Below the pieces are notes generated by a model. The model saw only the letters and a list, made by a program, of their open reading frames with translations, did no database searches and was not told the origin of the DNA. From an uncultured Macellibacteroides sp. (lineage in GTDB: Bacteria; Bacteroidota; Bacteroidia; Bacteroidales; Tannerellaceae), in contig NZ_OY762974.1 in assembly GCF_963667135.1 (NCBI RefSeq), forward strand, positions 992,001 to 1,056,000: a stretch of DNA of 64,000 nt, given 5' to 3'. Made by a program: the position numbers and the translations under genes. Positions 22,128 through 24,240 of this stretch are shown piece by piece (the first letter of the stretch is position 1; the number at the start of each line of letters is the position of its first letter).

Positions 22128-22135
22128 AACACAAC

Positions 22136-22171
22136 AAGAAGGATGCCCCAAAAGGCATCCTTCTTTGATTT
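22136..22171 (+). terminator. Terminator after kdgK-eda
   Basis: A perfect 12-bp GC-containing stem (22136-22147 with 22154-22165), 6-nt loop, then TGATTT. Confidence 0.82.
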
Positions 22172-22189
22172 ACTCCATTCAACCAAAAC

Positions 22190-22375
22190 GAAAAACCATG
22201 AAATGATCTACCACCCACCACCTTTTACAAACAGGCCTCTGTAAATAAACACCATACCCTCCCATTTCCCTGATTCATCTACCACTAATCCCTCACCTAT
22301 TCCTCACCAATCAGTCACAAAAAATAGAAGTGTCACCGCAATAGCGTACAAGAAAATCTACACATTCGTTCCTAG
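22190..22375. other. G-poor, C-rich intergenic tract
   Basis: The plus strand at 22201-22320 contains only 6 G in 120 bases, with many ACC, CTCACC and TACCAC words. It has no ORF or hairpin and lies between the eda terminator and the end of the convergent DUF3307 gene. Confidence 0.4.
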
Positions 22376-22380
22376 CAAAG

Positions 22381-23088
22381 CTACTTAATTATAAATCCAG
22401 TTAAAATGGCTATGGTAAAACTGGTTAGAGTACCAACCAACACATATTCTGTCGTTTTGATGTCTTTTGCTTTATTGAGGTCTCCAAATCGGAAAACGGA
22501 TTTTGCAGCCAAAAGGAAACCAACTCCGTCCAAACTCCCGGATATGATAAATGTAAAAATCAATATACGTTCCAGATAGCCAATCCATTGTCCTGCATTT
22601 GGCAGGCTATTATTGAAACTATCATCAACATTCCATCTTTTTAGAAGTAAACTCATAAAAAGAGAACTTGGCTTAAGCATAAGTGCATATCCTATTAATA
22701 ATTTCCAAAACATGCTGTTGTCAACATTCAACAAACTCTGCAATTCTTGCCATAAATCACAATCCGTGATGTACAACCATAAAGCAAGTATAACAAGTAA
22801 GTGAGCCACCTGATCAATAACAAAAGCTTGTATGTCTTTAGCTTTCAGAGAACTTTTAATACTGTCTATTATAAAATGTGATACGAATATTACCAACGGA
22901 ATAATCCAATTGCTCCATTGAGAAACAAACAAGTATGTAACAAAGGCATGGATTGAACTATGAGTAAGCTGATACAGCCATCGTTTATTATCTGATACAT
23001 TTTTTCCCTCGTTCATCTTGTCTGTTTGCAAAAAGAAATCGGATAATATATGGGCAAAAAGCAGTCGAAATAGAAGTGCTAATGTCAT
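22381..23088 (-). CDS. DUF3307 polytopic membrane protein
   Basis: Inner membrane protein of 235 aa in the DUF3307 family. About six hydrophobic segments are visible: near 1-20, 42-78, 85-110, 122-145, 168-195 and 212-233. Family features include FAHILSDFFLQTDKMNEGK near the N-terminus and FVSHFIIDSIKSSLK near residue 70. The start codon overlaps the stop of the SatD-family gene by 4 bp (ATGA), so the two products are made together. Function unknown. The region is AT-richer than the neighbouring kdgK-eda and transpeptidase genes. Confidence 0.88.
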   Translation of the reverse strand: MTLALLFRLLFAHILSDFFLQTDKMNEGKNVSDNKRWLYQLTHSSIHAFVTYLFVSQWSNWIIPLVIFVSHFIIDSIKSSLKAKDIQAFVIDQVAHLLVILALWLYITDCDLWQELQSLLNVDNSMFWKLLIGYALMLKPSSLFMSLLLKRWNVDDSFNNSLPNAGQWIGYLERILIFTFIISGSLDGVGFLLAAKSVFRFGDLNKAKDIKTTEYVLVGTLTSFTIAILTGFIIK

Positions 23089-23720
23089 GGCTGTTTATTC
23101 ATAATTATTTGAGTGCAACGATTGATATAGGTACGTATGAGTTTTTCTTTTGCTACATTTGATAATTTGCTTATATTCTGAGATGATTGTCCTAATTTTT
23201 CTGCAATTTCTTTTTGGGTCATTTGATATGCCAAAGACATATATATTACCAAAGACTGACTTGAAGTCCAATTAGTTATAATATCATCTGCAAATGCCGT
23301 GCTAATCTTTAATTCTTCGTTGGCATCTTCCCATCGTGTACGTACTGCAAGATTTCGCTTGCCTAATTCATCAAACTCTCGACCTGATAGTCGGAAAGCT
23401 TCACCATCTGAAACTAAAATACTATCGGAAATAAACTCAATTTCACCAATACCAACAGCAATACGAGCATCCCAATTTTGTTTAGATCCTTTAGGTACAC
23501 GACTTTTCAATCCGGCTCTTAGCAAAATTGCAATCAGCATTGCCATTTCTGGACGATTAACTACAATCTGAAAACTATCGCCTCTATAAATTTCGCACTT
23601 CAATGGCGAAAAAACTTGTAGTTCTTCTGAAATAACAGAAATAGCGGTCAACAAATCCTTTCTCTGTTCAATTGGAATTGAAGTTGAGTCTATTATATCT
23701 CCTGTAATTATACCATTCAT
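23085..23720 (-). CDS. SatD-family protein with cyclase-like N-domain and C-terminal HTH
   Basis: Protein of 211 aa in the SatD family (named from Streptococcus mutans; biochemical role unclear). The N-terminal 120 residues line up by eye with class III nucleotide cyclases. Asp8 (GDIIDST) and Asp48 (YRGDSF), 40 residues apart, sit where the two metal Asp residues are; RIAVGIGEIE matches the strand after them; GEAFRLSGRE has Arg114 where cyclases have the transition-state Arg, with Arg110 replacing the usual Asn. Residues 160-190 form a helix-turn-helix (TQKEIAEKLGQSSQNISKL). It is coupled to DUF3307 by ATGA. Cyclase activity is an inference. Confidence 0.85.
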   Translation of the reverse strand: MNGIITGDIIDSTSIPIEQRKDLLTAISVISEELQVFSPLKCEIYRGDSFQIVVNRPEMAMLIAILLRAGLKSRVPKGSKQNWDARIAVGIGEIEFISDSILVSDGEAFRLSGREFDELGKRNLAVRTRWEDANEELKISTAFADDIITNWTSSQSLVIYMSLAYQMTQKEIAEKLGQSSQNISKLSNVAKEKLIRTYINRCTQIIMNKQP

Positions 23721-23742
23721 ATGACTTGAATTCTATTATAAA

Positions 23743-23750
23743 CAAAAGTA
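23743..23750 (-). promoter_or_regulatory. -7 box of the SatD/DUF3307 operon
   Basis: On the minus strand TACTTTTG occurs 23 bp upstream of the SatD start, matching the Bacteroidota -7 pattern TAnnTTTG. A TTG is found only 17 bp further upstream, a shorter spacer than usual. Confidence 0.4.
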
Positions 23751-23777
23751 ATAAAAATATAGCAATACAATCATATT

Positions 23778-23861
23778 TAGTTGTTTATTTTATATCAACC
23801 AAAAATAGTTGTTTTATTGAAATCAACCAAAACAGGTTGTTTATATCTTTCATTCAAATCA
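23778..23861. repeat. Three tandem 28-bp repeats with GTTG-N12-CAAC dyads upstream of SatD
   Basis: Units start at 23778, 23806 and 23834, exactly 28 bp apart. The first two each contain GTTG, 12 bp, CAAC; the third keeps only the GTTGTTTAT half. They lie just upstream of the putative promoter of the SatD gene, as expected for an operator or activator-binding array. The HTH of SatD itself is a candidate binder. Confidence 0.6.
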
Positions 23862-24240
23862 TTAACAAATAATCATTAAACGCAAAACCTCTAACAAGGA
23901 TTAATCCTTAATTATACCCGATTAAGAGCTATAAACAGGACATACCAAGGTATAAATATCAAACAAATTCAGGAGGAGGGTTAGACGAAAAGGCAGATGC
24001 AAGAGACAGATGGAAAGTATCTGTCTCTTGCATCTGTCACTCCTTGTTTCCCCATCAACAAATGGTTCTTACCCTAAAAGTGAGAAGTGAGAGATAAAAA
24101 TTGGATTATTTGATAATTACAAAATTTCGATTAACTTTGTAAGAGTACATATAATAGCATTCTCCCTATAGAAAATAAGACAAACGACAATATATTGTTT
24201 CTTATCAGCAAAACAATTATTTAACGAAATATAGATAAAT
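23862..24240. other. Intergenic stretch between SatD operator and L,D-transpeptidase
   Basis: Apart from the hairpin at 23992-24038 I see no gene, RNA or repeat here. The last 120 bases are AT-rich and should hold the promoter of the transpeptidase gene, but no clear TAnnTTTG box stands out. Confidence 0.4.
23992..24038. repeat. Strong 20-bp-arm hairpin of unknown role
   Basis: Arms 23992-24011 and 24019-24038 pair over 20 bp with one G-U, loop GGAAAGT. There is no T-run after it and the nearest plus-strand gene end is at 22127, so it is not an obvious terminator. Confidence 0.6.

Follow-up and report, generated by a model that had tools for sequence, protein, structure and literature searches.

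A satD-like gene of an uncultured Macellibacteroides sp. is preceded by a dedicated operator array that the original prediction for this locus had missed. The locus was analysed within a 64,000-nucleotide stretch of contig NZ_OY762974.1 (the window), where satD is joined to the gene of a DUF3307 membrane protein. The interval described earlier ends at 23861, 141 bases beyond the satD start codon, and the array lies there, unmentioned. The presence of a dedicated array makes it very probable, as judged from sequence, that SatD regulates its own operon. Our best reading of the pair, which we regard as somewhat probable, is that SatD is a nucleotide-gated autorepressor restraining a membrane effector.

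The satD-like gene and its landmarks are located in the window as follows:

23085..23720, minus strand: satD-like gene, 211 aa, with a cyclase-homology domain (approximately residues 1-135) and a C-terminal helix-turn-helix (HTH)
23697..23699, minus strand: Asp8 codon, first metal-Asp position (alignments A3 and A1)
23577..23579, minus strand: Asp48 codon, second metal-Asp position (alignments A3 and A1)
23379..23381, minus strand: Arg114 codon, proposed transition-state Arg, non-conserved (alignments A3 and A1)
23121..23258, minus strand: sigma-70 region-4-like HTH, residues 155-200, with sub-threshold Pfam and NCBIfam matches, common in relatives
23166..23168, minus strand: Lys185 codon in the recognition helix, which goes with C at operator base 7

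The motifs singled out in the original prediction are all found in the 211-aa open reading frame, namely GDIIDST (Asp8), YRGDSF (Asp48, 40 residues further on), RIAVGIGEIE (Arg86) and GEAFRLSGRE (Arg110 and Arg114); the C-terminal HTH and the ATGA junction with the DUF3307 gene that it described can likewise be read in the sequence. Its assignment of the protein to the SatD family does not reach the Pfam cut-off (PF16264 scores 21.1 bits against a curated cut-off of 29, E=2.6e-4) and is upheld by profile continuity with SatD proteins. PF16264 is matched at E<=0.1 by 59 of the 79 aligned proteins, the best at 3.8e-16, proteins of a second SatD clade match the SatD profile in hhalign (Prob 99.8, 6e-28), and a Fusobacterium SatD of that clade reaches 53.5 bits with PF16264 (cut-off 29). 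The window genome encodes one SatD; apart from it, two weak matches (E 0.008 and 0.12) are confined to the HTH end. A WYL domain was not matched in the window protein up to E=1 (Pfam), and the only PADLOC match of SatD was a weak one of the HTH to Csa3 (E=0.0099), with no Pycsar or other defence model.

A relation of the N-terminal domain to class III nucleotide cyclases, also proposed earlier, is supported by profile searches against PDB sequences and by hhalign comparison with PF00211 domains. Two protein alignments were used. A1 comprises 27 proteins collected without motif patterns, drawn from 30 loci of the window's order with omission of L032 (whose protein equals that of L031), L027 and L029. 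A3 contains the window protein and 78 of 84 loci (L040, L052, L059, L060, L064 and L116 were dropped); 80 genome loci had been retained from a contig scan with at least 583 relatives, in addition to four viral-contig loci. With A1 as the hmmsearch profile the best PDB match was the class III cyclase 3mr7 (E=1.5e-5), followed by Ma1120 (2e-3), and with A3 it was Ma1120 (E=2.7e-4); the remaining matches of both profiles were mostly HTH proteins aligned to the C-terminal end. In hhalign, 23 PF00211 domains from the same phylum gave P=2.7e-5 (A3) and 1.4e-4 (A1), setting Asp8 and Asp48 against both cyclase metal Asps, while column-shuffled cyclases used as a control gave P=0.33 and P=0.19 and no match came from the membrane families compared. 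Since the HHalign probabilities are moderate (74 and 52), the relation is a remote homology, and the Pfam matches of the window protein to E=1 do not include PF00211. The known cyclases Ma1120 and 3mr7 are colinear with the SatD N-terminal domain, including both metal Asp positions, whereas SatD has an incomplete catalytic set and a fused HTH.

Both metal-binding positions are conserved by comparison of the relatives, D8 and D48 each being present in 79/79 proteins of A3 and 27/27 of A1. Among the 30 loci of the first set D8 is kept in 28, the exceptions L027 and L029 reading VAGELAP and RMDEF and having no DUF3307 gene within the fetched stretch. In A3, whose loci were found by patterns around RGDSFQ and DARxxxGIG so that conservation at residues ~43-51 and 84-92 is biased upward, D8, R46, G47, D48, F50, Q51, A108 and G113 are invariant, R86 occurs in 78 of 79 proteins, and position 68 holds R in 71 proteins and K in 8. 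The pattern-free A1 has R46 in 23/27 and R86 in 26/27.

The residues expected for cyclisation are mostly gone. Arg114, put forward as a transition-state Arg and present in the window protein, is Arg in only 35/79 proteins of A3 and 11/27 of A1, so this part of the proposal, whose conservation had been named at the outset as one of its tests, is not supported. The base-specifying Lys of the KTIGD motif is found in 0/79 proteins of A3, position 44 being taken by I, F, M, L, R or V. The replacement of the usual cyclase Asn, noted earlier as Arg110 in the window protein, holds almost throughout: Asn occupies position 110 in at most 2/79 proteins, and the seven commonest residues there, Asn not among them, account for 77/79. 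With the Lys absent, the Asn rare at most and the Arg non-conserved, a nucleotide-binding regulator is likelier than the Pycsar-type enzyme that had been suggested, which these counts and the lack of any PADLOC match beyond the weak HTH one make unlikely; the fallback offered at the time, an inactive nucleotide sensor, fits better. Because the metal Asps are kept and the cyclisation residues mostly are not, SatD probably binds a nucleotide with metal, without cyclising it in the usual way.

The array upstream of satD consists of three operator sites followed by a promoter-like box:

23821..23842, minus strand: operator site 1, AAACAACCTGTTTTGGTTGATT, 7/9 scored pairs
23793..23814, minus strand: operator site 2, AAACAACTATTTTTGGTTGATA, 6/9 scored pairs
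23765..23786, minus strand: operator site 3, AAACAACTAAATATGATTGTAT, 6/9 scored pairs, most degenerate by eye
23743..23750, minus strand: promoter-like box TACTTTTG, fitting TAnnTTTG

The box TACTTTTG matches the Bacteroidetes -7 promoter consensus TAnnTTTG, and operator site 3 occupies the place expected for a -33 box, a position that suits repression. Many close relatives have, upstream of satD, the motif AATCAACC-N6-GGTTGATT or a variant of it in approximately three copies with 28-29 bp spacing, and these arrays often stand just before a TAnnTTTG box. The motif differs by lineage: Muribaculaceae and some Porphyromonadaceae have TGCAACC, a Vibrio plasmid has TTAGCC, and elsewhere the motif reads TATAACC or TTATAAG. 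Two palindromes 29 bp apart, a number under the three-site threshold, were seen in the archaeal loci L098 and L101, and similar repeats were seen by eye in Haloplanus (L254) and in the second SatD clade.

A joint criterion of three palindromes (score 17) with copies at least 60% alike (identity 0.6) was satisfied at 28-29 bp spacing by 45/91 satD promoters, some of them near-duplicates (84 from scans and 7 from plasmids), compared to 3/252 intergenic control promoters; the other 46/91 satD promoters fail it. The count was 0/91 at each of nine alternative period pairs between 20 and 39. The thresholds were chosen after inspecting the data, and four threshold pairs gave 39 to 46 of 91. The palindrome score alone selected 42/91 satD promoters, 4/252 controls and 2-7/91 satD promoters at other period pairs. 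A less specific early test found at least three recurring inverted repeats in 39/85 promoters compared to 22/425 shuffles. The first control set, with 9/236 by the joint criterion, was replaced by the cleaned set of 252, as it may include a satD promoter viewed from a divergent neighbour.

The array sequence is associated with the SatD HTH. Among 41 scored loci, base 7 of the half-site is C in 23/27 loci with Lys185 and in 0/14 others (12 G, 2 A), a rule noticed post hoc among many residue-base pairs and confounded by relatedness; three of the four Lys185 exceptions were read half a period out of register and one has a weak G. In partial Mantel tests the motif correlated with the HTH (r=0.278, 0/2000 permutations) and as strongly with the N domain (r=0.279), therefore shared ancestry is not removed from this association. 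The two-site pattern (at most one mismatch) was found in 9 of 10 whole-genome handles, of which G165 and G572 look like one genome and G059 and G573 perhaps do too, and in 8 of these 9 the satD promoter is its sole place; the reversed pattern had no match in the 10 handles. A fifth two-site array of the Bacteroidales bacterium F22 genome (L291:4546-4589, one mismatch) is intergenic, with no SatD in the 9 kb read.

The gene downstream of satD encodes the second protein of the pair:

22381..23088, minus strand: DUF3307 membrane protein gene, 235 aa, in ATGA overlap with satD (PF11750 E=2.1e-21)
22759..23076, minus strand: PF11750 part, residues 5-110, with D17, Q21, H43, H71, D75, D92, Q93 and H96 invariant (69/69 in A4)
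22384..22656, minus strand: C-terminal module, approximately residues 145-235 (LER, AAKS, EYxLxGT), shared with the small partners of second-clade SatD proteins

PF11750 scores 76.7 bits on this protein against a curated cut-off of 23 (Pfam). The six membrane spans attributed to it are plausible: the mean hydropathy of 69 homologues (A4, consisting of 68 loci and the window) has eight peaks, three of which are close together, giving about six regions. The invariant His and Asp residues in the PF11750 half suggest a membrane enzyme or channel. No match of DUF3307 was found in PADLOC, nor among PDB sequences up to E=1. A relation to YdjM or PgpA was considered and rejected, as the hhalign comparison stayed below significance, with Prob 0.7 and 1.3 for full-length DUF3307 and no more than 2.1 for its halves.

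The coupling of the two genes, noticed at first in the window alone, extends across the genomes compared. DUF3307 lies directly downstream of satD in 76/80 genome loci, in 4/4 viral-contig loci and in 26/30 loci of the window's order; at one of the four unpaired genome loci, L090, the contig ends 85 bases past satD. Among 247 genomes of the phylum, 76 have SatD, 71 have DUF3307 and 66 have both, where 21.8 would be expected (hypergeometric p 9e-43, uncorrected for relatedness); at 70 of 82 SatD places in these genomes DUF3307 follows on the same strand, no more than 600 bases downstream. Nine of the 12 unpaired places were read: seven, all of the second SatD clade (L268, L270 and L272-L276), have a 104-113-aa membrane protein, L267 has none, and L271 is a short SatD close to the end of its contig. 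The small partners correspond to the DUF3307 C-terminal module only (hhalign P=1.8e-5, versus P=0.18 for the PF11750 half). Of five genomes with DUF3307 only, one has a divergent SatD adjoining, one a fragment, and three (loci L262, L263 and L264) no SatD within the 5 kb fetched. The SatD of L267, which lacks a partner gene and, by eye, an array, has lost both Asps (GKILN, GGNAL), so that together with L027 and L029 some partner-less SatDs have an altered metal site, which we count in favour of the best reading; the SatDs of L004, L013, L049, L069 and L097, without a DUF3307 match, retain both. In Aeromonas and Acinetobacter phages (H20-H28) the matches to DUF3307 were confined, at the search sensitivity applied, to its N-terminal part (query residues 2-102).

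The occurrence of satD is patchy. It was found in 44/295 genomes of the order and in 2/34 genomes of the same family, and is absent from the one congener searched. In the window the interval 22128-24115, between a KDPG-aldolase-like and an L,D-transpeptidase-like gene, seems variable, and similarity to the congener G295 stops at 24115, beyond which that genome has different DNA. The pair was also found on 3.8- and 4.4-kb enterobacterial plasmids. Queried with the cassettes of pEC34A and E. kobei, complete E. coli genomes gave no match for the pair, and the SatD of pEC34A had no match among phage records.

A defence setting, raised in the original prediction, applies to part of the loci. Among 20 loci read in detail, picked from long contigs and with neighbours judged by sequence reading, five are located within or next to type I restriction genes, the pair standing at L159, L166 and L167 between a specificity gene and a restriction or methylase gene; the other 15 look ordinary, as do the surroundings of the window pair, which do not resemble a defence island. 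PADLOC families matched at E<=1e-10 numbered 220 for 140 neighbour genes versus 39 for 137 control genes of the same genomes, in counts of families and not of genes, with 3/140 control genes left out and proteins over 700 aa shortened. On a Sphingomonas plasmid the genes near the pair include an AAA ATPase-helicase pair that reads as Gabija-like, a TIR gene and Pycsar-annotated genes. In Bacteroidales bacterium F22 (L289:3700-15042 and L290:2930-17463) an intact pair and three satD remnants, all truncated, recur with their arrays every 9.4-9.8 kb among SIR2, HerA, PDC-S20, AbiL-like, Zorya and RT genes, and the remnants may delimit defence cassettes. The pair adjoins an ABC-F-type gene at L161, L164, L165 and L253 (the name was assigned by reading in the first three), with groESL near in L161 and L165, and this arrangement is possibly an old synteny.

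Several known systems can be compared with the pair. Pycsar consists of a class III-like cyclase and a membrane effector, and the SatD operon also joins a class III cyclase homologue to a membrane protein; unlike Pycsar enzymes, SatD is devoid of the base-specifying Lys, has the Asn rarely or not at all, does not conserve the Arg, carries an HTH, and has no PADLOC match to that system. The WYL-domain regulators BrxR and CapW, which according to the available portions of the reports occur with diverse defence systems and islands, are like SatD DNA-binding regulators with a ligand-type domain (PMC9122601, PMC9122588, PMC9122589); SatD differs in its cyclase-like ligand domain, its one usual membrane partner, and palindromes spaced 28-29 bp. 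The streptococcal sat operon shares the family name. As far as the accessible text of the source goes, satD is accessory in S. pyogenes, with 178 of 249 complete genomes having it, yet proved essential in those strains and conditions that were examined (PMC11323703), as might by analogy be expected of a gene restraining something harmful. The streptococcal protein differs in setting, the S. mutans copy sitting with ylxM, ffh, satC and satE in a satCDE-ffh-ylxM cluster that the available part of the report ties to protein translocation and acid tolerance (PMC12077213).

The proposed mechanism would operate as follows. The N-terminal domain of SatD would descend from class III cyclases and would have kept their two-metal nucleotide site and not the usual cyclisation residues. 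The HTH would bind the palindromes spaced 28-29 bp in its own promoter, probably as cooperating dimers, and bound SatD would keep the satD-duf3307 operon low. The homology, the conserved Asps, the near-obligate pairing, the array and its association with the HTH come from comparison; repression rather than activation, a nucleotide as ligand, toxicity of the membrane protein and a role in defence or stress are inferred. An NTP, dNTP or signal nucleotide whose level changes in infection or stress would bind at Asp8/Asp48 and alter the grip of SatD on the array, and the membrane protein, presumed harmful or growth-stopping when unrestrained, would then be made or released. That another regulator uses the array is very improbable. 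The assignment to SatD draws on sequence comparison and ancestry remains in the motif-HTH association, which leaves this alternative some room; against it, the array sequence follows SatD residue 185 over several bacterial groups, and the array stands only at satD in 8/9 genome handles.

The other explanations overlap with the preferred one, and the probabilities we attach to them do not add to one. An active cyclase or nucleotidyltransferase with unusual residues, whose product gates the membrane protein in Pycsar- or CBASS-like fashion and whose HTH only sets the amount, is an improbable alternative: the two-Asp site with its conserved polar residues (R46, Q51, R/K at 68, and R86 in 78/79 of A3), the near-obligate membrane partner and the annotated Pycsar cassette adjoining the pair on one Sphingomonas plasmid speak for it, whereas the state of positions 44, 110 and 114 in A3 does not, and a DNA-binding domain with its own operator already accounts for the role of the protein. 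It is possible but doubtful that the pair resembles a toxin-antitoxin system, SatD contacting and inactivating the C-terminal module of the membrane protein and also repressing the operon, an explanation that itself overlaps with the best one. That the partner of the second SatD clade is this module alone (7 loci), that the pair travels on plasmids of 3.8 and 4.4 kb, and that satD is accessory yet essential in S. pyogenes, within the accessible text of PMC11323703, would agree with it; yet no toxicity is known, DUF3307 stands without SatD at L262, L263 and L264 as far as the 5 kb fetched there extends, and such a system needs no nucleotide-type domain. A general regulator of envelope or acid stress without a defence role, its nearness to restriction systems reflecting shared hitch-hiking, is likewise possible but doubtful, and is compatible with the regulatory part of the preferred reading. 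It would suit the ordinary-looking neighbours at 15/20 loci, the repeated ABC-F neighbour and the S. mutans cluster as described in the available part of PMC12077213, but not the patchy occurrence (44/295 genomes of the order), the insertion among type I restriction genes, or the repeated copies through one defence island in F22.

Beyond the nucleotide-gated autorepressor itself, one may speculate, with less assurance, that bacteria and archaea share SatD-DUF3307 as an ancient module in which a single protein of cyclase descent would sense a nucleotide signalling infection or stress and also occupy a multi-site operator; derepression would then release the membrane effector, making the pair an immune or stress switch gated by a nucleotide. 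DUF3307 is mentioned in one paper of the literature searched, where the Pfam and InterPro accessions looked for gave no mention and no description of such a switch was found. The proposed mechanism would give a widespread pair of uncharacterised genes a testable function: the array provides the DNA to assay, residue 185 a prediction of specificity, and Asp8/Asp48 the candidate ligand site. It could also explain how satD can be accessory yet essential in S. pyogenes. If true, a cyclase-derived ligand domain would join the kinds of regulators that travel with defence systems.
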